Program-made: the position numbers and the translations under genes
Notes under the pieces: model-generated
The model's database searches: none
The model's input: the letters and a program-made list of their open reading frames with translations, nothing else
What the model was told of the DNA's origin: nothing
Origin: Rhizobium sp. 9140
GTDB taxonomy: Bacteria; Pseudomonadota; Alphaproteobacteria; Rhizobiales; Rhizobiaceae
DNA: 64,000 bases
Assembly: GCF_900067135.1 (NCBI RefSeq)
Contig: NZ_FJUR01000001.1
Coordinates: 3,574,001-3,638,000, forward strand
Direction: 5' to 3'
Shown here: piece after piece, positions 23,795 to 47,096 of the stretch
Position numbering within the stretch: the first letter of the stretch is position 1
How the letters are laid out: every line of letters begins with the position of its first letter

Positions 23795-26700
23795 TCAAAC
23801 CGACTTGTTGAGGAGCGCGCCTGCGGCGGTGCTTCTGCCAACGAGGATCGAAACGCCGGCGTCCACCGGGCGGATGCGCAGCCGGTAGCCAAAGTTGCCG
23901 GCGTTTCGGCGCATGTAGTAGAGGAACGTCGTCTTGCTGGCGTTCAGCTTGTTGAACGTAACAGTCGTCTGCGCGACCTCCTGTGCAGCTCCGCCGGCAA
24001 CGACTTCATAGAGCGTCATCTCGACGTCAGTAGACGACAGTCCGCCCATGACAGTGCAGCGAAGCCTGCAATCGGCGAAGATCAGCAGACTGTCCTGGTC
24101 GGTGATGGATACGCCGACGAGGCTGTTGATCTGAACCTCGTTCGTGCCCGTGATCGTGTTGCCGTTGGTCTGCGCATCGATGTACGCCATCGACGATGCA
24201 CGGGAGGCGAGCTTGTCATATGTTACGCCACCGACCGTCAGCTTGTCCGTGCTGATCGATCCGGTCTGAAGCATCGCCGTCGTGATAGAGTTCGCTGCGA
24301 TCTTGTCGGCCGTGATCCCGCCGTCAACGATCAAATCGCCACCATTGCGCTCGAAGCAGCCGACGCCGCCGAAGTAGACATTCCCACCCGTCGTGTCCCG
24401 CTGGACGAACAACTCGATAATGGCGGATGCCGCTTGTCCAGGGGAGACAAGGTTTGCAACGAGCGGCCCCGTACCGCCCGAACCCCTGTTGCCGGTATTG
24501 AGGTAGTCGACGAAGCTGGCGATGCCGCCATTGGCATCCAGCCAAAGGACGCGGATCATGGCGTTGAAGTTGTTGTTCGAGTAGACGGCCCCGGTGAACC
24601 GATAGGCCGTGCCTCCCTTGACCGGGAATGACCGGCTCTGGCAGTTCGTGTAGCCGCCAGACCCCCAAGGCCCGGCGGTAAAGGCCATGCCGTTGTAAGA
24701 CTGAAAGAGGCCGTGATCGCCCCAGACGATCCACCCCGGAATGGTGCCGACCCACGCATCCGTCGTCGTCATCTGGTTGTCCGGGACCAGATTGTTAAAG
24801 TCGGTGATGACAAGCTGCTTGGCGGTGATCGATCCCGCCGCGATCTCGCGCGCGCCGAGGGTGTTTGCCTGCAGCTTATCGCCGGTGATGACACCGCCCT
24901 GGATGTTCGCCGCCACGATTGCATTCGCAGCGATCGTGCCGGCTGTCACAGCGCCAGCGCCGATCTTGCCGGCAGTGATGGCATTGGCCGCGATCTTGTC
25001 GGCGGTGATCGCGTTGGAGGCGATCTCTGTGGCGCTGATCGTGCCGACCGCGATATGGCCGGCGCCGATCGTGCGCGCATTGATCTCGTAGCCGGTGATC
25101 GTGGACGCAAGGAAGCTGTCGGCCGAGATGGTCCGGACAGCGATCTTGTCGCCCGTGATCGTGCCGCCAGCGATCTTCGCCGCCGTGATAGCATTCGCCG
25201 CCAGCTGGTTGGTGGACACCGCGCCGGCAGCGATCGTCGCTGCGGTCACGGCATTGGCCGCAATCGTGCCGGCTGTCACCGCATTGGCCGCAATCGTGCC
25301 TGCGGTGATCGCATTTGCGGCGACCTTGCCAGCGACAACCGCATTCGCAGCGATCTTGTTGGCCGTGATCGCATTGGTGACGATGTTGCCTTCCTGGATG
25401 AGGGTAACACCCGCGATAGACCAATCCGACGGCTGCGTCTGGTTTGCCCCAGCTTCAGCGAAGAAGAGGCGAGCAATCCATGTGTACGAGCCAGACCCCG
25501 AAGCCGGTGTGTTGCCGATGACCCTGCAGAACGGTCTTGCGAAGACAGCGTCAGCTGGGGACGTGGCGATCACGAACGCGCGCGTCATGCGTTCGAGATG
25601 CTTTTCAGGGTTGGATCCAGTGTTGTTATTCCAAGCCGTAACTGCCTGGCCAACCACGGCTCCGGCAACATTGTAGAACAGGATGAACATCTGAAAGCCA
25701 CCGCCACGGTGACCATTCATGTAGCAAGAGAACTCGTAGCGCTGGTTGGACTCGACGGGGTATTTTTTATCCAGATTGGTGGCTTCGGGATTTACGGAAA
25801 CCACATCCACGTACTGGTTGTTGTCGTTCCCTGTGTTGATGAGTTCAAGACCGCCGTCGATCGGAACCCACGTTGTATCGACGCGATTGATCGCCCACGT
25901 CCCGCCCATTGGGTTGGCGCGCCAACCGGTGAGGCCAGCACGGAAATCCGAGTTCTCCAAGAGGTTGGTGCCTTTGCCGACCGCGAGTTTGTCAGCGGAG
26001 ATGGCGCCAGCTGCAATCTTATCAGCAACCACGGCGCCGGCGGCAATCTGCCCGGCCGTGATAGCACCGGCCGCGATCGTGCCTGTCGTGACGGCGTTCG
26101 CAGCAATGGTTCCAGCCGTGACCGCATTCGCCGCCACCGTCCCAGCAGTAACCGCGTTCGCTGCAATGTTGCCGGCAACGACGGCGCCAGCAGCAAGCTT
26201 TCCCGCCTCAACCGAACCGCCCGAGATTTTTACGGCAGTTATCGCGTTCGCTGCGATCTGGTTTGCAGTGACCGCGTTTGCCGCAATTTGGTTCGCCGTG
26301 ACGGAGTTTGCCGCCAGATGGACTGTGGAAATCGATCCATCGACGACCAGCTCGGCACCCTCCGCCTTCCGCAGAGAAATGCGATCGATGATCAGGTAGC
26401 GCGTCGTTGACGGGCTGTGGTGGTAGATCTGCACCTTGCAATAGGTGGCAGAGCCAGGGACCTGCGTCTTGCCGGAGCGCTTGTCCCAAGCGGCGGGAAT
26501 GGACGCGTTCCCCTGGACGTCGGTGTACTGCGGCGACGAGAGCGCTGTCTTGTTACGATCGAACCACAGGATGCGGTAATAGAAACCGAAACCTGAAGAT
26601 CCGTCAGTCGTGCGAACGGACACATCCCACGCCAGCCAGTCACCGGACGTCACCGGGATGAAGTCCTTCGTGACCATGTTCATTGAGATGGAGCCACCGG

Positions 26701-29700
26701 ACCCGCCGTTGACGCCGTTTTCCAGAACAAGCGACCACCGACCCGTTTGTGCGTCACCGACCCAGAGCCAGATATTTGCGCCGCCCGCACCGGACCCATT
26801 GTACATCGGATAGTTGGCGTCCCAGACCGATGTGAGCGCGCCTTGCTCAAACTGACCGTCGGGAATGAAGTTCTCGAAATCCGCCAGGATTAGCTGCTTG
26901 GCCGAGATCGCGTTCGCGGCGATGTTATTGGCCACGATTGCGTCAGCGGCGATTTTTCCCGCAACCACGGCGTTTGCCGCAAGCTCATTCGCAGTGACGG
27001 CGCTGGCCGCCAGCTTTGCAGTCGTGATGGCACCGGAAGCGATTTCGGTCGCGGAGATCACGCCCGCCGCGATCTTTCCGGCGACAACCGAGTTCACAGC
27101 CAGCTTGTCAGACGTCACCGCAAGGGCATCGAGCTTTACCGTTGTGATGGCGCCCGAAGCGATCGTTCCGGCAGTGACGGCGCCAGCAGCGAGCTTGGCC
27201 GTCTCGATCGCACCGGAGGCGATCTTCGCGGCCGTGATGGCATTGGCCGCGATCTCATTGGCCGTGACAGCATTGGCGGCGATCTTGCCAGCTACGATGG
27301 CGCCAGCGGCGATCTTGTTCGCTGTGATCGCATTGGTGACGATATTGCCCTCAGAAATCAGGGTAAGCCCGCCCTCGCTCCAGGGCGACGGCTCCGTCTG
27401 ATACTGCGTCGCCTCACCAAAAAAGAACTTGGAGAACCACGTGTAGGAGTCCGTCCCATAGGTGACGCTGTGTCCCATGCAGCGCAGGAAGATGCGGACA
27501 TGCGTCGTGCCGGCCGGAGCCTGACCGACCACGAATATGCGCTCGTAGTTTGAAAGCTGGCTGCCGGGATCTGCATTCTGGTGCGTTGGCTTGTCGGCGA
27601 ACGTGTAGCCGATCGTGTTGCCGCCATTGTTGAGATACTCGATGTGCAGGCGTGCGTAGTCGGATCGATGGCCGAAGACATAAACCGAAGCTTCCAGCCA
27701 TGTCCCTTGAGCGACCGCCCACCGCATCGACATGGCGGTGTTGGCCGGATCGAGCGGGAAGACGTCCAGGAACTGCCCGTTGTTTTGTGCTCCGGTTTGA
27801 ACCGCGCGGAACGAGCCGCCGATCGGCGAGTACTTGTCACCGCCCTTGTCGAAGACCCATGTTCCACCGGAAGCATACGTGCCCCAATTGGTGAGGTCCG
27901 CCTGGGCGTTCGAGTTGTTGATCCAGTTCGTGCCCTTGCCGACAGCGAGCTTGTCGGCCGTGATGATACCGGCCGCGAGGTTACCGGCAGAGACCGCGCT
28001 GGCTGCAATGGTGCCAGCCGTGATGGCATTCGCAGCCACGGTACCGGCAGTGACGGCGCCGGCCGCGATTGTGCCGGCCGTCACCGCGTTGGCGGCGATC
28101 TTGCCAGCAATGACGGCGTTCGCGCCGATCGTCCCGGCCGTCACGGCGCCAGCGGCAAGCTTGGCCGTCTCGATGGCGCCGGCGGCAATCTTCACTGCGG
28201 TAATTGCGTTCGCAGCGATCGCGTCGGCCGTGACGGCATTTGCTGCAATAGCGTCGGCCGTGATGGCGTCGGCCGAAACATGACGCGCAATAATCGCGCC
28301 ATCGACAATCAGGGATGCTTCCGCCATCTCGACAAGCTGGATGTCGGAAATCAACCAGTAGCCTGCGGCATCCGTTCCGGTATCCATGTAAGGAACAGGT
28401 GTTGCCGTCTGTGTCCTGGAGCTGTCCGTCTTGAAGCGCCACTCGATCGTTTTGCCGGCAGCTGCCTGATACCCGGTGTCCGTTGCAGAAGCGATCACGC
28501 TCCCGTTCGACGCGGAAATCGACATATCGTTGATGACAAGGGCATTGAAGTTCTTGTTGCAGCCGACGTTCTTCACGATGGCCGATGCGCGGTACCAAGT
28601 GTCCGGCGTCAGGGGAAAACCGCGCGCGATCCAGCCGTGGATGCGCGGCCCGGCGTTCGCCGCCGCCAGAGCAGCATTGAACTTCATGGCGCCGGAAACG
28701 CGCATCGCTGCGACCTGGGCATCCGCACTGGAGACGAATGTCACGTAGGGAGCGTTCGGAGCCCAGTAACCCGGATCTCCGTAGAACCGGTCAAGAATAA
28801 GGCTTGCGCCGACTGCGTTCGCGGCGATCGACATCTTGGAAGCCGTGATCGCGTTGACGGCAATCTTATCGGCAATAATCGAATTCGCCTGCAGCTTCGG
28901 CGTCGAGATCGCGTCATCTGCGATCTTCGTGTTGGTGACGGCATTGGCAGCCAGCTTGGCAGCATCAACCGCGAGCGCCGCAAGCTTGGCATTCGAAATC
29001 GCGAGATCGGCGATCTGCGTTCCAACGAGCTGCCCTGTGACCTTGGCCGCCGCAAGCGCCGCGATCTGCGTATCGGTCAACTGGCCCGTGACCTTGCCGG
29101 CCGCGATGGCTGCGATCTGTGTGTCCGCGATCGTGCCGCTGATGTCTGGAGCCGCGACACTCGAAGTCCACGCGGACCCATCAAACCGGTAGATCTTGCT
29201 ATCGGTGCTCAGAAACACGACACGGCCTGCCGTATTGCCAGACGTCGGAAGCGAGGCGACCGTTTCCACGGGCTTCAGGCCTGTGCCGAACTTCGCGGCC
29301 GTGATGGCGGCATCGGCGATTTGACTTGAGACCAGCGTGCCCGTGACCTTGGCTGCTCCGACGGCCCCGATCTGTGCATCCGTCATCTGGCCGGTCACTT
29401 TGCCGGCCGCCACTGCGGCGATCTGTGCGTCGAGGAGCGTGCCGCTAATGTCGCCGGCAGCAAGTGTAGAAACGAACGCCGTGCCATTGAACCGGTAGAG
29501 CTTGTCGTCAGTCGTGAGGAAGACGATGCGGCCTTCCGTGTTGCCGGTGGTCGGCAGAGTGCTGACAACCTCGATCGGGCGCAGGCCGGCGGCGAACTTT
29601 GCCGTTGTGACGGCGCCGTCGCCTAGCTTTGCGGCAATGACCGATCCGTCTGCAAGTTTTGCAGCGTCTACGGCGAGAGCCGCAAGTTTGGTATTCGTGA

Positions 29701-32479
29701 TCGCCAGATCCGCAATCTGCGAACCCGCCAGCTGGCCGGCCACCTTGGCGGCGGCAACCTGAGCGATCTGCGTATCCGTTAGCTGGCCGGTGATCTTGGA
29801 TGCGGCCAAGCTTGCGATGTTCGCTTCGGCGATTGTGCCATTGATGTCCGTCGCGTCTACCGTCGAAATCCAAGCCGTGCCGCTGTAGCGATAGAGCTTG
29901 CCATCCGTTGTGAGGTAGGCCGTGCGGCCAGCGGTATTGCCAGTCGTCGGCAGCGCCGAGACCACTTCAACAGGACGCAAGCCGGAAGCAAATTTAGCAG
30001 CCGTCACTGCGGCATCCGCGAGCTTCGCGGCCGTGATCGCTGCATCACTGATCTGCGTTCCGACGATGGTGCCCGTCAGGTCAACCGTCGGTACCGATGC
30101 CGTGTAGGCCGAGCCATTCCAGCGATAGAGCTTGCCGTTGACCGTGATGACGTCCTGCGTCTTCGTGGTTGGAACGACAGTGCCCGAAATGACACCGACC
30201 GGCGCGATGCCGCTGGCGAACTTCGTGGCATCGACGGCCTGCGCCGCCAGCTTGTCGCGCTCGATCGCCGCGTCAGCGATCTTCGCGGCAATGACCGCGC
30301 CATCCATGATCTTGCTGACTGAGACCGCAGCGTCAGCCAGCTTGGCCGTGATCACAGCGCGATCGGCTAGGATCTGTGCCGTGACGGCCGCTACCTCAAG
30401 CTTCGCAGTCGAGACGGCAGCATCGGCCAGCTTCAGACCAGTGACAGCCGCATCCATGATCTTGTTGGCCGAAACCGCAGCGTTGCCGATCTTGCTGGTG
30501 ATGACGGCGCCGTCGAGGACGTCGGCCGAGGAGAACCCGATGTTGGCCGTCGTCAACGGGATCCACGCCGAGTCTTCCGTCTTGCGCGAAGAGTACGGAA
30601 CGAGCTTTCCCTGCACCTCGTATTCCGTCGCCGGCCAGAGCCACATTCCGCTCAAGGTCCATGCGCTCGACGTCGGCCCGTAGGGGAACTGATCGCTTTC
30701 GAACACGAGGGCGCCGGTCGCCTTCAGGCGAACGCGGACCAGGACGCGCGCGACGTCAGAAAGATTGGCGGCGCACGACACGATGATGACCGGCCGACGG
30801 CTTTTACCGTCTGGGTCTGTGAGAACATCCGCGCGAGCTTCCCAGCCGGTCATTGGCTGCGTCGGCACATCGATGCGGCCGATCCAGCCGCTCGATACGA
30901 CCTCCTGCATGGTCCGCACCCAATCGTAGTCGGTCGGGTCGATCTCCTGCAGGGTGACGATCTGGTTCATGCCCATCTGGCCACGGCGTTCCGTGACGAG
31001 GAAGCGCTTGTTCACATAACCATTGTGCTGCGACGTCCAGGCGACGACGTCGATGCCGGCCTCGAGCACATAGGCCATCGGCGGCATGGGCACCTGATGA
31101 CGGCGGAAGCGGCGCGCCTCAGCCAAGATCGCGCGCATGAGCTGCTGGACCTGACGATTGTGCGAGGTGGCGCCGAAGGAGATGTCGGCAAGGTTACGCT
31201 TGCCGTCGAGAACCTCGAAAGCGTCATTTCGAACAACCGGCGCATCTTTGGCAACCCACGCCTCTTCCGGGTTCGGATACTTGCCCGTCACGCCGTTGAT
31301 GGTCAGATCGACCGACGGGAACGGATCGAAGCCTGACGGTTCCGTGATGAGGGTGTCGGCGTCCGAGAAACCAAACACGGCTCCACCGAAGATCCCGTTC
31401 TTGATCTTGAAGACGCCGCCCTGATCCGTCAGCCGTCCGTTCTGAGCCTTGCGAAACTCCTCGATGACAGTGAGCGGCGGCGTGTCGCCGGTGATCTCGT
31501 AACCGCCGCGCCACTGCGGTTCTGTCGTTTTGTCCGCCCGCTCAACCAGACGGCCAGCCTCCTGGCATGCCGCAATCCAGTTCGAGGATGGCAGCCGCAG
31601 GGCGTTGACCTTCTGCCCGCCATAGAACCATTCGCCCTTGTAGCGAAGGCCTCGCAGGACGTTGTAGGTCATCACGCCGAGGTTATAGGACGGCTCGTGG
31701 GTGCTCTGATCGTCCCAACGATGAGTGCCATTCCCACCGTTCGTGCTGTCTCTGCGGATGTCGTAGAGCGGCAAAGGCGCCGGCTCGAACAGCACCTTCG
31801 GCTGGCCCTTGAAGTAATCGCGTTCCCAGCGATAGGTCATGATGGCGTAGGGAATGCCGCGACCGATCATGGTCGCGTCCCACGGCCGCTTCTTGTCATC
31901 CTTGAACGTTTTGACGAGGAAGGGGTCAGCGACCGTCTGCGAGCCGTCGTAGAACTTCACCCAGCAGTAATCGTGAACGTTCCCTTCGCTGTCGCGATAT
32001 TCCTTCAGGGGATAGCCGCGCCCGAAGACCGTGTCGGGCTCGTTCCATAGGATCGTGCACTTCTCGCCCTCGATCCAGATGCCGTCGAGACCCGAGACCG
32101 GCAGGTTGCCTAGCTCGATGACCTCGGTGAAATAGGTGTTCGGCGTGTCGCCGTCGTAGTTTCCCCACGTGCCGTAGTATTTGCGTTTGCCGCGCGTAGC
32201 GAACTGGCCGATCGTCGTGGAGACCGGCTTATCGTCGCCCACCTCTGCCTGGATTTTGGCGCCAACGGGCGGCGGCGCATCCGGCGCTGTTGCCATCGAA
32301 TAAAGTGTCGTGGCGGCCGCCAGTGCCAGACTGACGACGGCATTGACGATACCGGAGCCACTAATGACGGCGCTGAAGACGCCGGCAACCGCGCCGATCA
32401 GCGGCCCGGCCGCAGCCGGGTCAGGCTGCAGCAGGAAGAACGTCAGGGCGGTTGTGGCGAGAGCGGCTTTCTTGAACAT
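23795..32479 (-). CDS. Giant tail tip / host-specificity protein with solenoid repeats and five beta modules
   Basis: 2894 residues, one uninterrupted frame. Residues 1-25 are a hydrophobic leader; about 30-530 form the tail-hub part that follows an NlpC-type protein in phage tips; about 536-640 look like a fibronectin-III domain. The rest is built from AxTAxxIAAN-type decapeptides, expected to form a beta solenoid. Four KLYR-containing inserts lie near residues 780, 860, 990 and 1095. Five beta-sandwich-like modules lie near 1225-1393, 1513-1705, 1863-2046, 2168-2361 and 2556-2720, likely receptor- or glycan-binding. The last 150 residues are non-repetitive. The start overlaps the upstream stop (ATGA). 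Confidence 0.88.
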   Translation of the reverse strand: MFKKAALATTALTFFLLQPDPAAAGPLIGAVAGVFSAVISGSGIVNAVVSLALAAATTLYSMATAPDAPPPVGAKIQAEVGDDKPVSTTIGQFATRGKRKYYGTWGNYDGDTPNTYFTEVIELGNLPVSGLDGIWIEGEKCTILWNEPDTVFGRGYPLKEYRDSEGNVHDYCWVKFYDGSQTVADPFLVKTFKDDKKRPWDATMIGRGIPYAIMTYRWERDYFKGQPKVLFEPAPLPLYDIRRDSTNGGNGTHRWDDQSTHEPSYNLGVMTYNVLRGLRYKGEWFYGGQKVNALRLPSSNWIAACQEAGRLVERADKTTEPQWRGGYEITGDTPPLTVIEEFRKAQNGRLTDQGGVFKIKNGIFGGAVFGFSDADTLITEPSGFDPFPSVDLTINGVTGKYPNPEEAWVAKDAPVVRNDAFEVLDGKRNLADISFGATSHNRQVQQLMRAILAEARRFRRHQVPMPPMAYVLEAGIDVVAWTSQHNGYVNKRFLVTERRGQMGMNQIVTLQEIDPTDYDWVRTMQEVVSSGWIGRIDVPTQPMTGWEARADVLTDPDGKSRRPVIIVSCAANLSDVARVLVRVRLKATGALVFESDQFPYGPTSSAWTLSGMWLWPATEYEVQGKLVPYSSRKTEDSAWIPLTTANIGFSSADVLDGAVITSKIGNAAVSANKIMDAAVTGLKLADAAVSTAKLEVAAVTAQILADRAVITAKLADAAVSVSKIMDGAVIAAKIADAAIERDKLAAQAVDATKFASGIAPVGVISGTVVPTTKTQDVITVNGKLYRWNGSAYTASVPTVDLTGTIVGTQISDAAITAAKLADAAVTAAKFASGLRPVEVVSALPTTGNTAGRTAYLTTDGKLYRYSGTAWISTVDATDINGTIAEANIASLAASKITGQLTDTQIAQVAAAKVAGQLAGSQIADLAITNTKLAALAVDAAKLADGSVIAAKLGDGAVTTAKFAAGLRPIEVVSTLPTTGNTEGRIVFLTTDDKLYRFNGTAFVSTLAAGDISGTLLDAQIAAVAAGKVTGQMTDAQIGAVGAAKVTGTLVSSQIADAAITAAKFGTGLKPVETVASLPTSGNTAGRVVFLSTDSKIYRFDGSAWTSSVAAPDISGTIADTQIAAIAAGKVTGQLTDTQIAALAAAKVTGQLVGTQIADLAISNAKLAALAVDAAKLAANAVTNTKIADDAISTPKLQANSIIADKIAVNAITASKMSIAANAVGASLILDRFYGDPGYWAPNAPYVTFVSSADAQVAAMRVSGAMKFNAALAAANAGPRIHGWIARGFPLTPDTWYRASAIVKNVGCNKNFNALVINDMSISASNGSVIASATDTGYQAAAGKTIEWRFKTDSSRTQTATPVPYMDTGTDAAGYWLISDIQLVEMAEASLIVDGAIIARHVSADAITADAIAANAVTADAIAANAITAVKIAAGAIETAKLAAGAVTAGTIGANAVIAGKIAANAVTAGTIAAGAVTAGTVAANAITAGTIAASAVSAGNLAAGIITADKLAVGKGTNWINNSNAQADLTNWGTYASGGTWVFDKGGDKYSPIGGSFRAVQTGAQNNGQFLDVFPLDPANTAMSMRWAVAQGTWLEASVYVFGHRSDYARLHIEYLNNGGNTIGYTFADKPTHQNADPGSQLSNYERIFVVGQAPAGTTHVRIFLRCMGHSVTYGTDSYTWFSKFFFGEATQYQTEPSPWSEGGLTLISEGNIVTNAITANKIAAGAIVAGKIAANAVTANEIAANAITAAKIASGAIETAKLAAGAVTAGTIASGAITTVKLDALAVTSDKLAVNSVVAGKIAAGVISATEIASGAITTAKLAASAVTANELAANAVVAGKIAADAIVANNIAANAISAKQLILADFENFIPDGQFEQGALTSVWDANYPMYNGSGAGGANIWLWVGDAQTGRWSLVLENGVNGGSGGSISMNMVTKDFIPVTSGDWLAWDVSVRTTDGSSGFGFYYRILWFDRNKTALSSPQYTDVQGNASIPAAWDKRSGKTQVPGSATYCKVQIYHHSPSTTRYLIIDRISLRKAEGAELVVDGSISTVHLAANSVTANQIAANAVTANQIAANAITAVKISGGSVEAGKLAAGAVVAGNIAANAVTAGTVAANAVTAGTIAANAVTTGTIAAGAITAGQIAAGAVVADKIAAGAISADKLAVGKGTNLLENSDFRAGLTGWRANPMGGTWAINRVDTTWVPIDGGLELINTGNDNNQYVDVVSVNPEATNLDKKYPVESNQRYEFSCYMNGHRGGGFQMFILFYNVAGAVVGQAVTAWNNNTGSNPEKHLERMTRAFVIATSPADAVFARPFCRVIGNTPASGSGSYTWIARLFFAEAGANQTQPSDWSIAGVTLIQEGNIVTNAITANKIAANAVVAGKVAANAITAGTIAANAVTAGTIAANAVTAATIAAGAVSTNQLAANAITAAKIAGGTITGDKIAVRTISADSFLASTITGYEINARTIGAGHIAVGTISATEIASNAITADKIAANAITAGKIGAGAVTAGTIAANAIVAANIQGGVITGDKLQANTLGAREIAAGSITAKQLVITDFNNLVPDNQMTTTDAWVGTIPGWIVWGDHGLFQSYNGMAFTAGPWGSGGYTNCQSRSFPVKGGTAYRFTGAVYSNNNFNAMIRVLWLDANGGIASFVDYLNTGNRGSGGTGPLVANLVSPGQAASAIIELFVQRDTTGGNVYFGGVGCFERNGGDLIVDGGITADKIAANSITTAMLQTGSISTDKLTVGGVTYDKLASRASSMAYIDAQTNGNTITGTNEVQINSLVGVSITDQDSLLIFADCRLRCTVMGGLSSTDVEMTLYEVVAGGAAQEVAQTTVTFNKLNASKTTFLYYMRRNAGNFGYRLRIRPVDAGVSILVGRSTAAGALLNKSV

Positions 32480-33551: not shown

Positions 33552-34201
33552 GGCTTTTCGATCGCAGTGAAACCGGCGCCCTCGGTCAGGTGACGGCGCG
33601 CGCGGCCGGGCATGTGGCTGTCAGGCATGATGACCATGCGGCAGGCCGGCCGGGCGAAGATCGTGTTGGCGTTTACAGCCAAACCGTCGGGCACATTCGG
33701 GTAAATGCTGAGGACGGGCGTCACGCCGTCGCTGCCCGCAACGCCGCGCTCGGAGATCTCGAGGAAAGCGTATTGAACGGGATTGCTGCCCCACGACACC
33801 TGAAACTTGTCCGCGATCGTGAGGACGTATCCGGCCGGAAACCCTTTAAAGCTGACCGAGCGACGATCCGTGCCGATCGTGGCGATCTGGATGACACGGC
33901 TGCCAAGGATGGTGCCGCGCGGATCCATCGCCGGATAGGGCGACAGCGGGTCGAACATCCAGAATGCTTCTTGGGCACCGCGAAGGGCGCGGATCAGGGC
34001 GGCATACTGTTTCATTTCCGCGCTCGAGCGGCGATCGAGTTCTACCACGGCACGCCAAAGCGGGTCCGCCATCTCTGCCTGCCAGATGCGACCACTGGAC
34101 TGTCCAGACAGGCTGTCACGCCGTTTTGCACCCCACTCGACGCTGGAGATGGGCAGACGATCGGCGAACGTTGGAAGGCTGTAAGGGAAGCTATGGGTCA
34201 T
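33548..34201 (-). CDS. Distal tail protein (position of GTA gp12 / DUF2460)
   Basis: 217 residues, beta-rich, no membrane segment. WRAVVELDRRSSAEMKQYAALIRALRGAQEAFWMFDP resembles the ring-forming domain of distal tail proteins, in which a helix precedes a hydrophobic strand. Its length is close to that of GTA gp12, and it directly follows the tape measure gene. Strict motif support is weak. Confidence 0.65.
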   Translation of the reverse strand: MTHSFPYSLPTFADRLPISSVEWGAKRRDSLSGQSSGRIWQAEMADPLWRAVVELDRRSSAEMKQYAALIRALRGAQEAFWMFDPLSPYPAMDPRGTILGSRVIQIATIGTDRRSVSFKGFPAGYVLTIADKFQVSWGSNPVQYAFLEISERGVAGSDGVTPVLSIYPNVPDGLAVNANTIFARPACRMVIMPDSHMPGRARRHLTEGAGFTAIEKP

Positions 34202-37200
34202 TGGCCCCTCACATACGGGCGCTTCTTGATCTGTTCGAAGCGGGCCGGCAGGTTCTTGTCGTAGGCGCGAAGGCCCTTGGCAACGCCGCGATCGACGGCG
34301 TCCTCGATGTCGCGATCGCCGCGCGGGTTATCGACGTAGACGTTGATTTCGGACTTGCCGGAGCCTGCACGATCGTTGGCAGTCGACGCCATCCTGCTCT
34401 GGCCCTGCGAAGGATAAACCGACGCCGGCGCTCCGATCTTGGCGACAAATCCACCCTTGTCGTAGCCGCGTCCGGAGTTGAGCCCATCCAGCATGCGCCG
34501 AACGCCTGGCTGCGCGACCACGCTGGCTTTGACAACATATTCCTGACCATGGACGAAGCCGGCTATATCGCTGCGCCCGCCGTTGCCGGTGTAGCCACCG
34601 ACGTCGAACAGACCCTTGCCCGGATTGTTGACGGCCCAATTTGCCTGCGCACCGTTCGGTACGAAGTTTGGAAGGAACGCCGTCAGCAACGAGCCGAAGA
34701 GACCCCCGCCGCCGCCGCCGCCAGACGGGGCCGGCGGAAACCAGTTGGCTAAGTTCTGTCCTGCCTGCCCAAGGCCTTCACCAAAGCCACCTAGACCTTT
34801 GACGGCTGACGATGACGCACCTGCAAGACTGCCAACAGTCGTGCTGGCGTTCTGTCCGGTAGTCGCGAGCTTGTCTAAATTGCCGTTCGCGTTTCCGAGA
34901 GCCTCATTGAACTTATCAACATAGGCGTTTCCTGTGGTCCCGAGGACGTCGGCACCTCGACCGCCTTTACCAACAGAACCCGGTCCCCCGAACCAAGCCT
35001 GCGCGGCGCCCGAGGGACCGTACTTATCGACGTAGCCGCCGAAGCGGTGATTGAAAATGGCGTCCTGCGCAGACTTGTCTCCAAGGAATTGCGACGTAGA
35101 CAGCCGGCGCCCTAGTGCAGCCTCCGACCATGGACCGATGTTGTTGCCCATCATCTGATAGGCGCCATAAGCACGGTCACCACTCCGGGTGATAGGACCG
35201 AGCGCGCCGTAGTTGCCACTGCTCTCGATCGACTGGATGGCCTTGGCGTAGGACGAAATATTTCCCAGCGGTTCGCGCGTGACAGGGATCAGCGGAGCTG
35301 CGTAGGACTCGAAGCCGCTTGCTTTCGGCGTGTTCTGATTGGCCGCGACCGGCGCACCTTTCAGGAAACGGCCGAGCACATCCGACAGCTCCGGACGATC
35401 GCCGCCCAGAAGCATGTTCTTGATCGAGTTCGTGCCCAGCTCCTGGAAGAACTTGCCGACATCGCCGAGGAGGCCATTCAAAGCACCTTTGAAGTCCCCT
35501 TTAAGAAGCGAGCTGAAGACATTGTCGATCGCGGTCTCGCCGGCTGACTGAAACATCTGCCAAGCAGCTGTCGCCTTTTCGACCTCGATCGTCTGGTTGG
35601 CGATCTCACGTGCATTGCGCCGGATCTGTTCGGCCTCGGCCGACAGAGCCGAATAGCCGCGTGCCCGGATCATCTGCTCGGCTTCGAGAACCGCCAGCGC
35701 CTTTTCGCGTTCGGCCGTGCTGGCGCCGACGAGTGTCTTCTCAAGGCGCAAGCGCTCCAGATCGTCGTCCTGCCCCCTGATGACGTCGATCGCGCCGGCG
35801 CGGCGTTGCTCAAGTTCGCTGGCAGCGGCTGCGTCCTTGGCAGCCGCCAGCGCCTCGGCCAGCTTCTTCTGTTCCTCGCCCTGGGCAGCCGCCGCAGCGG
35901 CGGCAAGCGGGCGGAGCTGGATTTCCGTGCGCAGAAGAGCCTCGGCTTGGCTCGCCGTGATATTGCCGGCCGCGACCTGATCGTTAAGGCGGCGCCGTGC
36001 TTCGACCTCCTCGACCAGCTCGGCCGACTGAAGGCGGGAGGCGGCGAGCGTCTCCTGGATGACGCGGTTGCGTGCAGCGGCAATGCGGGACGATGCCTCG
36101 GCCGTGGTGATTTCCTCACCGGCCAGCTGCAGGCGCTCACGATCAGCCATCAGGCCCGCGAGCACGATAGGGTTTCGCTCCGTCTGAATGCGGATGTCGA
36201 GCGCGGCAAGCTGATTGGCGCGCTCCTGCGCCGGGATCAAGGTTTCCAGCGCACGCTTCTTGGCGTCGATCGTTGCCGTTATGTCGGCGCGTTGGCTGTC
36301 GAGAAGGCCCGGCGCATCCAGCCCGCTTTGCGCCTTGACGAGGCTGTCCTCAAGATCGCGGCGGGCGCGGGCTGCCGCCGTTGCCGGGCTGGCGTTGGCG
36401 GTGTCGAGTGCGCCTCGAGCAGCGGCACGGCGCTTTTCCTGTTCGCGATCGCGCGCTTCGTTGCCGCGCCGCTCCATGTCTTCCTGGCGAAGACGTTCCA
36501 GTTCGGCCCGACGTTCCTCTACTTCGCTGTCAAAGCTGCCATCGCCGAAAATGGTGCCTTTGCTCTTCTGCTGTTGCCGAAGCGCAGCGGCGTACAACTC
36601 AGTTGCTTCGCTCAAAGCGTCAGCCGGCGATGGCCCGCTCAAAGCCCGATCGATGGATTTCCCCATCCAGTCGTAGGCATCGCTTGCGGCCTTTGACACA
36701 CTGTTCCAAGCACGACCAAGCGCCGTGGTCGCTTCGCTGGCGTTAGCCAGCCGGCCTGGAAGAGCAGCCAGCAGGACCTGCTGCGCTTCGGTGAGCCGGT
36801 TCTGTGCCGTCAGGCGGCGCGCATACTCGGCCGTCGCAGCATCGATCAGCCCATACTGGCGATAGAGGGTGTCGATCGCCTTGGACGGATCTGCGAACAT
36901 CTCGGCCAGTGCCGCGCCCGCCTCATCGGCCGACACACCGATCGTCGCGCCGAAATTCTTGCTGATCGCGATCAGCTGCTCGAAGTTCTCCGAGGCGATC
37001 CGGCCGGTCCGTAGGAACTGCGCTTCCATTGTGCGGGCCGACGCGACGGAGATCCCGGCCGCCGCTGCGCCGTTCTGAGCCGCCGCTTCCATGCTCGCGG
37101 CACTGCCGGCAGTCGCGCGACCAATCCCGGACGCTGCGGTCTCGACTTCCTTGATGGAGCCGAGATAGTCGTTCCAGGCCATGGCGCCGAGGACGACGGC

Positions 37201-38361
37201 CGCTGTCGTGCCGGCAATACCGACCCGCAGCGGCGTGATCGCGGCCATGGCTGCCTTGGCGGCATTTCCCATGCTGCCGTAGATCTGCATGGCCTGCGGA
37301 CCCTGCTGTAGAATGACCTGCGAGATAGGCATGCCCAGCGCCAGCGACTGGACGGTGTCCACGCCCTGCGTGAAGAGGTTGGCCTGTTGGTCCGGACGCA
37401 GGCCCTTGCTACCCGCGATGCCCTTGCGCGACTGGATCAGCCCGAGCGTCGCCTGACGCTCGCGGCTGATCGCAGCCGTCATTTCATCATGCGAAATCGC
37501 ACCGACCCTGTTGGCCTGACGGATGTCCTCGATCGTCTTGCGATAGGTCGTGAGAGCCGCATAGCGCGGATTGTAGGCCTGCCGCAGCCGATCGCGTTCG
37601 TCCATGAAGGCGGTGATGTCAGCGCTGCGGTCCGGCTGGATCATCTGCGACTGGACGATGGACTGTGCGGACTGTTTGCGTCGGGCAGCAAGGCGTTCGG
37701 CAGCACCTGCCTGCTCTTCCATGGCGCGGGTTTCGCGGATCCTCGCATCGATGGCGGTGGACGCCGAGATCGCGCCGACGCGCTCGGCCTCGTTAATGTC
37801 GAGCAGAGCCTTGCGATGGCGTTCCATCAAGGCGAACATCGGATCGAACCGCGCCTGCAGGCGGTCCATCTCCTTCAGGTACGCCTCGATATCGGCGCCA
37901 CGGTTCGGCGTGATCGTCCTCGCTTCAACGATCGATTGCGCCTGCTGCTTCTGGCGTGCCGCAAGCCGCTCGGCGGCACCCGCCTGTTCCTGCATCGCGC
38001 GCGTCTCGCGGATCCGCGCCTCGATCGCGGTGGAGGCCGAGATCGCGCCGACCTTCTCGGCGTTGGCGATATCGGTCAACGCCTGCCGATGGCGCTGCAT
38101 GACAGCGAACATCGGATCGAAGCGCGCCTGCAGCCGGTCCATCTCACGGCCATACGCGGCGATATCGTCCAACTTGGTCGTGTTGTTGTTGGCAGCTTCC
38201 TTGAGCTTGCCGAGTGCCGTGGTGACGGCCTGGACCTTCGGCGCGACCGCCTCGGCCTGCTTGCCGATCGCCGCAACGGCATTGCGCGCTTCCGTGCCGC
38301 CAGACTTGGCGCCGGAGGGATCGACGGTGACGCCGATCGCGATGCGATAGGCGGCCGTCAT
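34198..38361 (-). CDS. Tail tape measure protein with lytic transglycosylase domain
   Basis: 1387 residues. The N-terminal 300 residues are helical and contain three copies of a roughly 90-residue unit (RFDPMFAVMQRHRQAL..., RFDPMFALMERHRKAL..., AYNPRYAALTTYRKTI...). A hydrophobic stretch near 375-400 (LRVGIAGTTAAVVLGAMAW) follows, then long coiled coils. About residues 1036-1130 form a lysozyme-like domain (AIQSIESSGNYGALG..., AYGAYQMMG) with the likely catalytic glutamate in IESSG. Length sets the tail length; the enzyme domain would cut peptidoglycan on entry. It overlaps the chaperone extension gene by 4 bases. Confidence 0.92.
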   Translation of the reverse strand: MTAAYRIAIGVTVDPSGAKSGGTEARNAVAAIGKQAEAVAPKVQAVTTALGKLKEAANNNTTKLDDIAAYGREMDRLQARFDPMFAVMQRHRQALTDIANAEKVGAISASTAIEARIRETRAMQEQAGAAERLAARQKQQAQSIVEARTITPNRGADIEAYLKEMDRLQARFDPMFALMERHRKALLDINEAERVGAISASTAIDARIRETRAMEEQAGAAERLAARRKQSAQSIVQSQMIQPDRSADITAFMDERDRLRQAYNPRYAALTTYRKTIEDIRQANRVGAISHDEMTAAISRERQATLGLIQSRKGIAGSKGLRPDQQANLFTQGVDTVQSLALGMPISQVILQQGPQAMQIYGSMGNAAKAAMAAITPLRVGIAGTTAAVVLGAMAWNDYLGSIKEVETAASGIGRATAGSAASMEAAAQNGAAAAGISVASARTMEAQFLRTGRIASENFEQLIAISKNFGATIGVSADEAGAALAEMFADPSKAIDTLYRQYGLIDAATAEYARRLTAQNRLTEAQQVLLAALPGRLANASEATTALGRAWNSVSKAASDAYDWMGKSIDRALSGPSPADALSEATELYAAALRQQQKSKGTIFGDGSFDSEVEERRAELERLRQEDMERRGNEARDREQEKRRAAARGALDTANASPATAAARARRDLEDSLVKAQSGLDAPGLLDSQRADITATIDAKKRALETLIPAQERANQLAALDIRIQTERNPIVLAGLMADRERLQLAGEEITTAEASSRIAAARNRVIQETLAASRLQSAELVEEVEARRRLNDQVAAGNITASQAEALLRTEIQLRPLAAAAAAAQGEEQKKLAEALAAAKDAAAASELEQRRAGAIDVIRGQDDDLERLRLEKTLVGASTAEREKALAVLEAEQMIRARGYSALSAEAEQIRRNAREIANQTIEVEKATAAWQMFQSAGETAIDNVFSSLLKGDFKGALNGLLGDVGKFFQELGTNSIKNMLLGGDRPELSDVLGRFLKGAPVAANQNTPKASGFESYAAPLIPVTREPLGNISSYAKAIQSIESSGNYGALGPITRSGDRAYGAYQMMGNNIGPWSEAALGRRLSTSQFLGDKSAQDAIFNHRFGGYVDKYGPSGAAQAWFGGPGSVGKGGRGADVLGTTGNAYVDKFNEALGNANGNLDKLATTGQNASTTVGSLAGASSSAVKGLGGFGEGLGQAGQNLANWFPPAPSGGGGGGGLFGSLLTAFLPNFVPNGAQANWAVNNPGKGLFDVGGYTGNGGRSDIAGFVHGQEYVVKASVVAQPGVRRMLDGLNSGRGYDKGGFVAKIGAPASVYPSQGQSRMASTANDRAGSGKSEINVYVDNPRGDRDIEDAVDRGVAKGLRAYDKNLPARFEQIKKRPYVRGQ

Positions 38362-38759
38362 TCCTCGTCATCCTCGGCGGAGGCCGGGTCGCCGTCGTTG
38401 AAGAGCGGCAGCACGGCGTCCTCGATGACGCGAAGATCCCGGAACACGTCGGGCTCATAGCCCTCGGCATCGAGCACGATCTTGCAGGCGGCGTAGTCGA
38501 GGCCAATGAACAAGACGCCGTTCTTGTTCGACGCCGCTCTCCACTGCGTCGAGCACGCGATGAAGCCGGAAAGACTGGCGGCGTTCTGGATCACGAGGGC
38601 AATCTCATCGTCGTTGGGTTCAGCATCGTCATCGTCCATGACGAACGTCACGCCGAGCTTCTGGGACTGCTGGCGGAGATCGTCATCGATGATGGTGGCA
38701 CGGGAGGGATCGACGCGACCGAGGCGGACGTATGTCCACGCGACGGCCGCGTCCGTCAG
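38358..38759 (-). CDS. Tail assembly chaperone, -1 frameshift extension (DUF1799-like)
   Basis: This frame has no good start of its own at its true upstream edge. It opens at the end of the preceding gene and reads LTDAAVAWTYVRLGRVDPSR... into DDDDAEPNDDEIALVIQNAASLSGFI..., a DUF1799-like sequence of phage tail regions. It is entered by a -1 slip at 38759-38765, giving a 270-residue fusion with the preceding gene. An internal GTG at 38651 could in theory start a 97-residue product. The fusion form is known to bind the tape measure during tail assembly in lambda-like tails. Confidence 0.82.
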   Translation of the reverse strand: MTDAAVAWTYVRLGRVDPSRATIIDDDLRQQSQKLGVTFVMDDDDAEPNDDEIALVIQNAASLSGFIACSTQWRAASNKNGVLFIGLDYAACKIVLDAEGYEPDVFRDLRVIEDAVLPLFNDGDPASAEDDEE

Positions 38760-39169
38760 TTTTTTAGGCGGGCCTTGTCGAGCGTAACGGCGTCCTGGTA
38801 CGCCTTCACGATCGCCACTCTGACCCGCTCATGTGCCCAGACGGCCGTAAAGGTCTCCGGGCTGAACGCCAGCGGTTCGCCGTTCTCGTCGGCAATCTTG
38901 CGCCAGTCCCGCACCAGCCGGCGTGCTGCCGCCTCGTCGTGGTCAGCAACGCGGGCCATGATCTCGACCATCTCGGCATCTGTCGTCTCGGCGTTGATCT
39001 CCGCAAGGATGGCTGCACGCTCGCGGGCCGAGTTCCGGTTGATCTCTTCGGGCAGTAGCTCGAACTGGATCTCGAACGTATGCTCGACGGTTTTCCCCAT
39101 CCGGTTCGCGTCGGGTTCCGTGACCTTGACCGGCCACCAGAAGGCGAGGTTTTCGACGAGCTTGAACAT
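38756..39169 (-). CDS. Tail assembly chaperone (gpG-like), zero-frame product
   Basis: 137 residues, acidic and helical (EIQFELLPEEINRNSARERAAILAEINAETTDAEMVEIMARVADHDEAAARRLVRDWRKIADENGEPLAFS). It ends K-N-stop at the slippery sequence. Position between the tail tube and tape measure genes, and the frameshift arrangement, identify it as the shorter form of the tail assembly chaperone pair. Confidence 0.85.
   Translation of the reverse strand: MFKLVENLAFWWPVKVTEPDANRMGKTVEHTFEIQFELLPEEINRNSARERAAILAEINAETTDAEMVEIMARVADHDEAAARRLVRDWRKIADENGEPLAFSPETFTAVWAHERVRVAIVKAYQDAVTLDKARLKN
38759..38765 (-). promoter_or_regulatory. Programmed -1 ribosomal frameshift site A-AAA-AAC
   Basis: The zero frame reads CTA AAA AAC TGA, placing the slippery heptamer A AAA AAC in exact phase one codon before the stop. 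A -1 slip re-reads the C and continues CTG ACG GAC GCG into the long downstream frame. CGGACG directly after the TGA can pair with CGTCCG 19 bases later, a possible stimulatory stem. Confidence 0.9.
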
Positions 39170-39236: not shown

Positions 39237-40166
39237 TCACATGACGGTCAGCAGGAACTCGTCATTGCCGGCGACCGGCGTTGCCATCAGCGGCAGGGTG
39301 TTGTTGATCCGCTTGCGCGTCTCGCCGTACTTCGGCCGGCCGATCTGGACGGCCTGCATGCCGAACTTGACGATGTTGCCACCCTGCTTCCCATGCTGGG
39401 CCGCAAGGATGCCGAGATCGCCGGCTTCGGACTTGGCAAACCAGTTGACCGCAGAAAGCGCATCGGCACGCATGATCGCCGACCCGGTCATCATGCGATC
39501 GACATGCTCGATGGCTTCCTCGTTGATCAGAAAGTCCGGCTCGATCTGGTTGCCGATGTCGAACGTGATGCCTTCGGTACCGCCGGCATAACCGTGCAGC
39601 GAAAAGGTCGTGTTCGCCTTGTTGACGGGAACCGCCTTCTTGAATGCCGTCGTTGTCAGGGTCGGCAGGGCGGCATCCGAGACCACACCCAGAAGACCGG
39701 TCAGGACGAACCGGAAGCGGGGAATGGCGAGCGGCGCCATGTTGAGCGTCCACGTCCCGCGCGCACCGAGCAGGATGTGCTGGACGCCGTCGCCATTCCA
39801 GCGCACCGACACGCTTTCCTGCGCCTTGGAGATCGGATTGTACTGAACATCGGTCGTGGCCGTGATGACCTCGCGCATGGCGCAGGCCCGCATCAGCACG
39901 CCCCAAGGCGGCGGGGTTCCGGGCGTGCCGGATCCTGCCACTTCCACTTCGCCGGAGAGCGTGCCGTAGGTTCCAACCAGCGTAACGCCCTGGTGGCCCA
40001 TGTAGGGAAGGACGAGGTCGCGGCTGACCTCCTGACCGGCAGACGGATCGAAGTCCACATCGGTCATGACCATTGCGTTAGCCGCGCCGGTCGGAATGCT
40101 GTCCTCGCCGTAGATAGTCTCGGACTTGACGAGGATGGCGCGGTTTCGCCAGTAGCGCTTTGCCAT
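39237..40166 (-). CDS. Major tail tube protein
   Basis: 309 residues, beta-rich: KRYWRNRAILVKSETIYGEDSIPTGAANAMVMTDVDFDPSAGQEVSRDLVLPYMG at the start is typical of tail tube proteins of transposable siphophages. LGARGTWTLNMAPLAIPRFRFVLTGLLG in the middle is a conserved core. It lies between the tail terminator group and the chaperone pair, the standard position. It would form the inner tube of a long non-contractile tail. Confidence 0.85.
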   Translation of the reverse strand: MAKRYWRNRAILVKSETIYGEDSIPTGAANAMVMTDVDFDPSAGQEVSRDLVLPYMGHQGVTLVGTYGTLSGEVEVAGSGTPGTPPPWGVLMRACAMREVITATTDVQYNPISKAQESVSVRWNGDGVQHILLGARGTWTLNMAPLAIPRFRFVLTGLLGVVSDAALPTLTTTAFKKAVPVNKANTTFSLHGYAGGTEGITFDIGNQIEPDFLINEEAIEHVDRMMTGSAIMRADALSAVNWFAKSEAGDLGILAAQHGKQGGNIVKFGMQAVQIGRPKYGETRKRINNTLPLMATPVAGNDEFLLTVM

Positions 40167-40168
40167 GG

Positions 40169-40402
40169 TCAGGAGTTCCTCTTCCGCGTGGTGGGCGCGG
40201 CTTCGTCAGATGTGACGGCCGGTGTTTCTTCGATCGCCGGCGCATCGCTCGTGGCGACGGCCGGCGCCGTCTGCTCGGGTGCAGCTGTCGCGGCGTCCGC
40301 CTCGGGCGCGGCGGGCTTCGGCTCTTCCGTGCGGCTGACGAGCTGCAACGAGCCATCGGGTTGGCGGACGTAGCTGCCGCCGCCTTCATGATCGGTCATC
40401 AT
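40169..40402 (-). CDS. Small phage protein with disordered acidic tail
   Basis: 77 residues from the ATG at 40402, which overlaps the previous stop (ATGA); a second ATG follows immediately. The N-terminus DHEGGGSYVRQPDGSLQLVSRTEE is compact; the rest is an alanine-, proline- and glutamate-rich disordered tail ending TTRKRNS. Similar tiny genes precede the tube gene in Mu-like phages; function unknown. Confidence 0.7.
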   Translation of the reverse strand: MMTDHEGGGSYVRQPDGSLQLVSRTEEPKPAAPEADAATAAPEQTAPAVATSDAPAIEETPAVTSDEAAPTTRKRNS

Positions 40403-40824
40403 TCGGTCTCCAGGTAGCGGCTCGTCTGCCACGTCTGCACATAGACGGTGACACCGTTGCCAAGCGGCGCGGCCTGTGCCGACACCAGTTCGAAAAGGTC
40501 GCCTCGGGGATCGACCGACCAGCCAGCAAGCGCCTGCTCGATCGCGCCCTTCATCGTGTCGAAGTCGAGCGCACGTTGCGCGCCCTGGACGTCAGCATGC
40601 CGGCGCAGGACGAGCGCCACGAGGATCTGCGCGTGCACGAGCTGCTCGAAGCCACCCATCGCCAGCGTGTTAGGCTCGGCCTGCTCGCGGTAAGGGATGA
40701 CGAAGACGGTCCCGTTCTTTGGAGCCGTCCCTGCGCTGATCGAGGCAAGATCCTCGACCGGCAGCACGTCGGAAACCGCCGTGCCTAGCTCGCTCTTCAA
40801 ACGGGTGATGACGGCCGCGATCAA
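40399..40824 (-). CDS. Tail terminator-like protein (Mu gp37 position)
   Basis: 141 residues, alpha-beta: IAAVITRLKSELGTAVSDVLPVEDLASIS, VFVIPYREQAEP, QILVALVLRRHADVQGAQRALDFDTMKGAIEQALAGW, TVYVQTWQTSRYLE. This pattern fits the small terminator proteins that cap the tail tube and join it to the head. Overlapping stop and start codons with both neighbours. Confidence 0.75.
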   Translation of the reverse strand: MIAAVITRLKSELGTAVSDVLPVEDLASISAGTAPKNGTVFVIPYREQAEPNTLAMGGFEQLVHAQILVALVLRRHADVQGAQRALDFDTMKGAIEQALAGWSVDPRGDLFELVSAQAAPLGNGVTVYVQTWQTSRYLETE

Positions 40825-45852: not shown

Positions 45853-47096
45853 TATTCAGCCCGTCGAAACAGAAGCGCACCACGCCGGTAATTCTGAAGG
45901 TAATCGTCCTTCGTATCGAAGCCGGTCACGGCCACCCAGCCCCTGTTGGTCCATTCGAAACGCACGAACAAGGCGCGGCCATCGGGCAGGATGATCCGCT
46001 TCAGGTAGGCACGGCGCAAGACCACGCCACTTCTCATGGTCGCCCAATCCACCCAGATCTCGTCTGGCGCGATGATGGTATCGGCCAGCAGCTTGGCGTA
46101 CTGGCCTCGGCCGCGTTTGTCGCTCTTCAGGCCGACGACGGTCCCGTCCGGCATGCGCTGCTCGAACAGGGACCGGCTGATGGTGATGAGCCCTCCGGAC
46201 TTGTCGCGGAACGGGCCTTCGTCCTTCTTCAGGTTGAACCGCTTCAGGAAGCCCTCGACATAGGCTTTCGGCTCAAGCCCCTCCGGCATCAGGTCGCGGC
46301 TCTTGGCGGCGGTCGGCTCCGGGAGATCCGGCAGGTTGACCGGCGCCGGCGTATCCGGCCGATACGCTGGCAGCGGCTCTCGCAGCTCGGTTGGCACAAC
46401 ACCGTCGAGCCACTCCTTGCCGACGTTGTATTCCCAGCCGCGATCGATGCCGCCGATCCGCTCTTCCTTCTCCCCGGTGCGAGGATCGATACCGTCATAC
46501 CTGACCAGCTCGGGCGACTCGTCCGGCGCATCCTTGCCGAGCGCTTGCATCTCGCGTCGGGACAGAGCCTCGACATCGCAACCGCATCCCCAGCCATTCG
46601 GCGGGTAGATGCGGTCCCAGATCGGATCGGTTGCGGCCCAGACCTTGCCGTCCCAGGCAAGGTGCTGAAGACGCGGATGCAGCGCGCCGGAATGGACGTA
46701 CTGCCAGTAGGGCCGATACTTCAGGACATCGGGATCTGTGAGCTGCTTATAGCGCCCGGCCATATAGCTGGTGCGCATGTTTGTCGTGTAGATGATCCGC
46801 GCGCGCCATGCGCGCCGCTCGCCATCCGTCGATCCACGCGCATTAAAGAGCCAGCCCGTGCGATCGACGATGGCGTCAAAGTCCTTTTGAAACTCTTTGA
46901 AGCCCGTTCCCTGGACACGCGCTTTCTCGATCGCCGCCCGGAAATCTCCCAGCATGTCATCCCGCGTGACGCCGGCGACAGAAAAGCCGCGGACATGGGC
47001 TCCATGCTTCAGATCGTCATAGCGCCTGGTGGGCAGGTTGACCTTGCCGGCGACGAAGTCGATTGCCTCCTGAAACGGGATCTGCTCACCGGCCAT
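45852..47096 (-). CDS. Head morphogenesis protein (Mu gpF-like) with C-terminal nuclease-like domain
   Basis: 414 residues. About 1-180 match the Mu gp30/SPP1 gp7 minor head family: RARIIYTTNMRTSYMAGRYKQL, YWQYVHSGALHPRLQHLAWDGKVW and YPPNGWGCGCDVEALSRREM. After a proline-rich linker, residues about 290-414 (IIAPDEIWVDWATMRSGVVLRRAYLKRIILPDGRALFVRF, WVAVTGFDTKDDYLQNYRRGALL) resemble the phage Barnase-EndoU-ColicinE5/D-RelE type nuclease domains found fused to phage head proteins. Such parts may be injected with DNA. It overlaps the portal stop by 11 bases. Confidence 0.85.
   Translation of the reverse strand: MAGEQIPFQEAIDFVAGKVNLPTRRYDDLKHGAHVRGFSVAGVTRDDMLGDFRAAIEKARVQGTGFKEFQKDFDAIVDRTGWLFNARGSTDGERRAWRARIIYTTNMRTSYMAGRYKQLTDPDVLKYRPYWQYVHSGALHPRLQHLAWDGKVWAATDPIWDRIYPPNGWGCGCDVEALSRREMQALGKDAPDESPELVRYDGIDPRTGEKEERIGGIDRGWEYNVGKEWLDGVVPTELREPLPAYRPDTPAPVNLPDLPEPTAAKSRDLMPEGLEPKAYVEGFLKRFNLKKDEGPFRDKSGGLITISRSLFEQRMPDGTVVGLKSDKRGRGQYAKLLADTIIAPDEIWVDWATMRSGVVLRRAYLKRIILPDGRALFVRFEWTNRGWVAVTGFDTKDDYLQNYRRGALLFRRAE

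Follow-up and report, generated by a model that had tools for sequence, protein, structure and literature searches.

A conserved purine-AAAC heptamer points to a programmed -1 frameshift linking the tail assembly chaperone frames of a Mu-like prophage in Rhizobium sp. 9140

Organisation of the G-T locus

We analysed a window of 64,000 nucleotides (C1:3574001-3638000, C1 being contig NZ_FJUR01000001.1) from the 5.43-Mb genome of Rhizobium sp. 9140, with attention to two overlapping tail reading frames, referred to here as G and T. Profile matches to a Mu-type portal, a Mu F-like protein, Mu Gp36, a tail terminator and a tape measure protein identified the locus as a Mu-like prophage. The order of its tail genes is tail terminator (PF23840), tail-tube-like protein, G, the frame carrying DUF1799 (a domain of unknown function) and tape measure (TMP_2). 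The G-T pair thus has the major tail protein gene on one side and the tape measure gene on the other, as two-product tail assembly chaperones do. The features are listed in Table 1.

Table 1. Position of the tail chaperone frames, the candidate frameshift signals and neighbouring tail genes in the window
Feature	Position	Strand	Basis
G, zero-frame tail assembly chaperone, 137 aa, MFKLVENL...KARLKN*	38756..39169	-	Open reading frame (ORF); PHROG 313, PHROG 569
Slippery heptamer A AAA AAC, in the phase of G	38759..38765	-	Direct reading
Zero-frame stop TGA, adjoining the heptamer	38756..38758	-	Direct reading
T, -1 frame with DUF1799, 133 codons plus stop, LTDAAVAW...DDEE*	38358..38759	-	ORF, Pfam
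Predicted RNA hairpin, outer 10 bp and inner 7 bp, candidate frameshift stimulator	38712..38753	-	-28 kcal/mol, z -3.16
Tape measure protein gene; ATG overlaps the T stop (ATGA)	34198..38361	-	PF06791 TMP_2, E 4.2e-34
Probable major tail (tube) protein gene, upstream of G	39237..40166	-	PHROG 290, E 5.7e-20
Tail terminator gene	40399..40824	-	PF23840, E 2e-15

On direct reading, the minus strand at the end of G runs GAC AAG GCC CGC CTA AAA AAC TGA, which bears out the original prediction, made by a model from the letters alone, that G ends CTA AAA AAC TGA with the heptamer in phase. The second frame overlaps G, and a -1 slip at the in-phase A AAA AAC reaches T, which is entered from C38759 and stops at 38358-38360. 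This frame had been described as open for 133 codons and DUF1799-like, and both statements hold, since T matches DUF1799 (PF08809) with an E-value of 8.1e-9 and 36 bits against a curated cut-off of 26, the Pfam domain spanning residues 51-118. G matches PHROG 313, 'Tail assembly chaperone' (E 4.5e-5), and PHROG 569 (E 4.2e-10), and Phage_TAC_4 is matched by 10 of its 41 aligned relatives (best 3.7e-43). Comparison of G with solved structures gave nothing meaningful (best E 0.49). The same comparison for T gave a resemblance to half of the profile of ribosomal protein L20 (E 0.0033), which we took as chance.

From the stop that opens the T frame to a GTG 37 codons past the heptamer, no ATG, GTG or TTG was found. 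This GTG and the next ATG (codon 41) lack a Shine-Dalgarno-like sequence, with scores of -0.2 and -1.7 kcal/mol respectively, in agreement with the earlier claim that the frame has no good start of its own at its upstream edge. AAAAAAC is common by chance in the window (2 found against 2.4 expected); AAAAAACTGA is rare (1 found against 0.04 expected). The weight of the evidence rests on conservation.

The gene order, the in-phase heptamer, its conservation in 146/149 loci, the coding constraint before any start and the downstream folding all fit what the original prediction had proposed, a programmed -1 frameshift linking the tail chaperone genes. Judged from sequence, we consider it very probable that this frameshift yields a G-T fusion, and that G and G-T form the G/T tail assembly chaperone of the Mu-like prophage.

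Conservation of the heptamer among DUF1799 loci

Conservation of the heptamer in homologues had been set as a check by the original prediction. We collected 149 loci, picked by their DUF1799 (T) protein and never by the heptamer. Four genome sets gave 8 (5/151 genomes matched), 19 (18/385), 29 (30/398) and 7 (10/369) loci; the remaining sources gave 16 and 63, plus 7/12 phage records. In the 398-genome set several further matching places gave no locus and were left out. The genome sets overlap partly, and some of the 149 loci are duplicates; the window, for one, recurs as an IMG/VR contig. Clustering of T at 80% identity gave 108 clusters. A core set of 105 clusters, having RRRAAA[CT] and Leu by construction, was obtained by dropping L058, L067 and L074.

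An in-phase heptamer was observed within the -1 overlap in 146/149 loci. Over the 108 clusters it is AAAAAAC in 55, GGGAAAC in 51, AAAAAAT in 1 and AAAAAAG in 1. As a base rate, the 10,078 upstream G codons of the 105 core clusters hold 7 in-phase X XXY YYZ heptamers (Y = A or T), of which 1 is RRRAAAC. Of the three loci counted as lacking the heptamer, L070, where a G-like frame is missing upstream, has probably decayed or been rearranged; L090 is apparently unrelated; and L131 is truncated by the end of its contig, but GGGAAACTGA can still be read there. Leu opens the new frame in 105/108 clusters, the exceptions being L058, L067 (which scores below the Pfam cut-off) and L074. AAAAAAG, the one heptamer of the survey to end in AAG, belongs to L058; it lies at 1360 in the oriented locus, some six codons ahead of where the Leu usually stands.

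These counts bear on two other explanations of the frame change. The two frames could once have been one, with a base missing through decay or mis-sequencing; this accounts for the frame change itself and nothing more. A second copy in this genome, with 95% identity across the compared segment, has the same decamer, and the heptamer abuts the stop in 91/108 clusters, which leaves such an accident a negligible chance. Alternatively, RNA polymerase could slip on the six A residues, and altered transcripts would join the frames. The window site is indeed an A6 homopolymer, which speaks for this. Against it, a run of six A is short for polymerase slippage, and at the same place 51/108 clusters carry GGGAAAC, in which no run exceeds three, and we regard transcriptional slippage as extremely improbable.

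Coding constraint ahead of any start codon

In the T-frame continuation of the 105 core clusters, Ala4 is found in 87, Ala5 in 80 and Trp8 in 83. The entropy of T codons 2-8 at codon positions 1, 2 and 3 is 0.95, 1.34 and 1.53 bits. In 148 related pairs, compared only over codons that precede the first ATG, GTG or TTG of either sequence, differences at positions 1/2/3 number 794/821/1427. These figures show that the stretch from the heptamer to the first possible start is protein-coding in the T frame, a fact for which separate initiation does not account.

This counts against the view that G and T are two separate genes, in which ribosomes ending G would re-initiate at the GTG or ATG 37-41 codons on and make a free DUF1799 protein. 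Such an arrangement would fit the location of the DUF1799 Pfam domain downstream of the internal GTG, the internal starts annotated in the RcapMu and RcWaterboi records, and the listing of chaperone and DUF1799 protein as separate genes in VarioGold. The codons it would leave untranslated are, however, constrained and hold the Leu..AA..W motif, and it leaves the conserved heptamer unexplained. Both window starts are without a Shine-Dalgarno sequence, and in the family T-frame starts are scarcely better in this respect than non-start codons (-5.3 against -4.7 kcal/mol, n 95). A QW motif is present in 98 core clusters; between it and the heptamer, 5 of these lack any ATG, GTG or TTG, and 30 lack an ATG. 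In phages RC1 and RS1 no usable start comes ahead of the midpoint of the DUF1799 domain. We therefore hold re-initiation to be very unlikely. In the records of RC1 and RS1 (L015, L016) the DUF1799 gene is annotated from the CTG of the frameshift site itself, which is an annotation artefact.

The stop codon adjoining the heptamer

The zero-frame stop adjoins the heptamer in 121/146 loci. In the core set this holds for 91/105 clusters, against 37.5 (sd 4.05) expected from the T residues and the codon usage of each locus; at 50% identity it holds for 72 of 83 core clusters. The rare Leu codon CTA, which gives TAA or TAG, is used at the site in 20/105 clusters as against 46/1120 Leu codons elsewhere in T (binomial tail 1e-8), and Asn AAT, equally permitted by Leu TTA or TTG, was seen once where about 13 were expected (1e-5). 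These tests take clusters as independent, and shared descent weakens them. The excess over expectation and the CTA and AAT counts indicate that the abutting stop is favoured. The base after the stop is unbiased (C 24, A 23, G 23, T 21).

The abutting stop might be kept for a part in decoding or to fix where G ends. We give about an even chance to an ordinary frameshift whose stop has no decoding role and is kept only since the short product is best ended at the heptamer Asn. A fixed end of the short product suffices as the reason for the excess; against this, G runs on for another 1-35 codons in 17/108 clusters, which can therefore do without an exact end. One of the later stops is in the third prophage of this same genome (L007, C1:25984 region), where an in-phase G GGA AAC is followed by the zero-frame stop 5 codons later, so that one genome holds both arrangements. 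More tentatively, DUF1799 chaperones might use a distinct, termination-coupled -1 frameshift on purine-AAAC heptamers, which end in an Asn codon and are weak in E. coli, with the stop as a working part of the signal; we find this reading rather doubtful. A stop placed after the HIV heptamer in a bacterial system lowered frameshifting, and more RF2 abolished it (PMC4373837, citing Horsfield 1995). The mean heptamer-to-stop distance in SEA-PHAGES training data is given as 26 nt (PMC10885494). For control chaperone families, PF06894 was matched in 0/274 genomes and PF16459 in 0/166. PF10109 was matched in 5/166 genomes and gave 6 loci, of which 5 carry T-type heptamers 1-13 codons ahead of the stop and the other has no heptamer; the stop abuts the heptamer in none of these 6, which form a thin control set.

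RNA folding downstream of the heptamer

The 50 nt past the heptamer form more stable predicted folds than their dinucleotide shuffles (mean z -1.77, 54% below -1.5), the mean z at offsets of -60, 60 and 120 being -0.31, -0.26 and 0.0. Compared with synonymous recodings, the mean z is -1.28, with 45% below -1.5. In the window, a 6-bp stem had been proposed right after the stop. Its two halves, CGGACG and CGTCCG, can indeed pair; the best predicted fold is instead the larger hairpin of Table 1, which begins 5 nt past the heptamer and is equalled by 1/200 dinucleotide shuffles. Across 29 relatives, both sides are changed in 7/10 of its outer pairs. Doubly changed cells number 24 against 13.3 in shuffles, and 69.3% of cells are paired against 63.3%. 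Excess downstream folding is thus common in the family, and its shape is variable. Rfam gave 3 matches, all far under their gathering scores.

Evidence weighing against frameshifting, and the slip codon

Several observations count against a programmed frameshift at this site. G of the window has no Pfam match above a cut-off. With synonymous recoding, 55% of clusters fail z -1.5 for downstream folding. In the window helix, further pair types show no excess (15 against 16.0 in shuffles), the three outermost pairs are unpaired in 10, 19 and 14 of the 29 relatives, and RNAalifold found no common structure for these 29. By position, a Shine-Dalgarno-like peak stands out 4-8 nt ahead of the heptamer (about -4.2 against -1.3 kcal/mol), and we rejected it as a stimulator because it is nearly all set by the residues of G (mean z -0.30); in the window the score does not go beyond expectation (-3.0 observed, -3.3 expected). 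T-frame starts have a Shine-Dalgarno score of -6 or better in 34/95 relatives, as compared with 28/95 for non-start codons. The later stop in 17/108 clusters belongs here too. Finally, A_AAA_AAC is reported to be far less shift-prone than A_AAA_AAG in E. coli (PMC5009743; PMC4066793), so the slip rate may be low.

The GeneTack work lists A_AAA_AAC among its consensus heptamers and, for two genes in a cluster of HK97-like chaperones, measured frameshifting at 6-7% (PMC3711429). We also considered that a dedicated host tRNA-Lys(CUU) might make AAG unslippery and so account for AAC. A pattern search matched tRNA-Lys(CUU) in 19/57 DUF1799 genomes, a pattern that may miss genes; AAC sites were present whether or not a genome matched, which gives the idea no clear support.

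Proposed mechanism and comparison with known systems

In the mechanism that we propose, most ribosomes would translate G and end at its TGA. Others, the smaller share, would slip back by one base onto AAA AAA while tRNA-Lys and tRNA-Asn sit on A AAA AAC, probably slowed by the hairpin 5 nt downstream. Slipped ribosomes would pass the stop and make a G-T fusion reading ...ARLK-K/N-LTDAAVAW..., and the DUF1799 part would be made mainly or only by this route. If lambda gpG and gpGT are a guide, G and the fusion may both coat the tape-measure protein, with the T part recruiting tail-tube subunits. The comparison establishes the layout, the conserved heptamer, the constraint on the new frame and the surplus of abutting stops and of downstream folding; that ribosomes slip, how often they do so, what hairpin and stop contribute, and what the products do, are inferred.

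Frameshifted tail chaperones have long been known (reviewed in PMC5009743). Lambda G/GT resembles the window pair in lying before the tape measure gene and giving two products by a -1 slip (PMC5009743), and differs in its GGGAAAG heptamer and in a stop 5 codons later. The lambda arrangement was found in 80/80 of the best 80 of 428 relatives, which are one near-identical lineage. G of the window does not match the lambda G family PF06894 (E up to 1), and its heptamer is AAAAAAC, not GGGAAAG.

A similar T is present in the phage records of RcapMu and RcWaterboi, followed by those of RC1, RS1, four Pseudomonas phages and Thiobacimonas vB_ThpS-P1. RcapMu genes 49/50 (NC_016165) and RcWaterboi genes 47/48 share with the window the gene order, a DUF1799-like -1 frame and a heptamer at TGA, and the RcapMu record notes a 'potential -1 frameshift' at this point. 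They differ in having GGGAAAC, a second gene annotated from an internal GTG, and a T that is 33-34% identical. For Acinetobacter phage Loki gp12/gp13 the same layout has been noted; its DNA has AAAAAACTAA, the new frame opens with Leu, and its second frame, read by eye, is without the TQW and GLDY motifs of DUF1799. AAAAAAC and GGGAAAC chaperone sites have been published for phiCbK, Colossus and the haloarchaeal viruses HCTV-1 and HCTV-2 (PMC3556154, PMC5009743). AAAAAAC is also used in bacteria by IS1 insAB' (A6C motif), which is not a tail chaperone (PMC12428005), and two viruses have a stop codon directly after the heptamer in genes other than tail chaperones (PMC4373837). We found no paper linking DUF1799 to frameshifting in the open-licence literature; the passages of the VarioGold paper that present the chaperone and the DUF1799 protein as separate genes leave frameshifting unmentioned.

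Two-product tail chaperones are thus a known kind, and what is new is the family-wide rule of purine-AAAC against a stop, which is also the part likeliest to interest specialists. It raises the decoding question of why a large and diverse phage family keeps AAC against a stop, AAG being more shift-prone in E. coli. A role is hereby proposed for DUF1799, as the T half of a G-T tail chaperone. The four records examined (RcapMu, RcWaterboi, RC1 and RS1) mis-start or split such genes. For annotation, the rule would be purine-AAAC and a stop, then Leu-x-x-Ala-Ala-x-x-Trp in the -1 frame.

Neighbouring genes and prophage context

The product of the gene upstream of G has no Pfam match. PHROG 290 is a tail family, named minor tail protein there, and the position of the gene matches that of the tail tube protein of RcWaterboi; the tube-protein call rests on PHROG 290 and gene order. 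The RcapMu tail is described as flexible and non-contractile (PMC8601537), and this prophage may have a tail of the same type. The minus strand encodes, at window 45855-47096, a Mu F-like head protein whose C-terminal domain is PBECR2 nuclease-like (PF18810, E 1.8e-30). One 2894-codon ORF at 23795-32479, also on the minus strand, carries many near-repeats such as AITAxKIAAGAV and is perhaps a tail tip or fibre protein, judged by position. Its repeats fit the many short BLAST pieces seen in the prophage comparison.

If C1 is circular, three related Mu-like prophages apparently stand in a row and in the same orientation, at about 21.8-63.6 kb of the window, from C1:3640422 to the contig end, and at C1:1-48121; the last 40 bases of C1 recur at C1:5717. 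The middle prophage corresponds to the window over about 21.8-51.2 kb only and seems to be without the early region, which in the window holds a transposase-like ORF (59637-61658, named by eye). The third matches the window up to 63.6 kb, at about 70-90% identity. Mu-like phages are thought to show target immunity, and prophages in a row are therefore odd.

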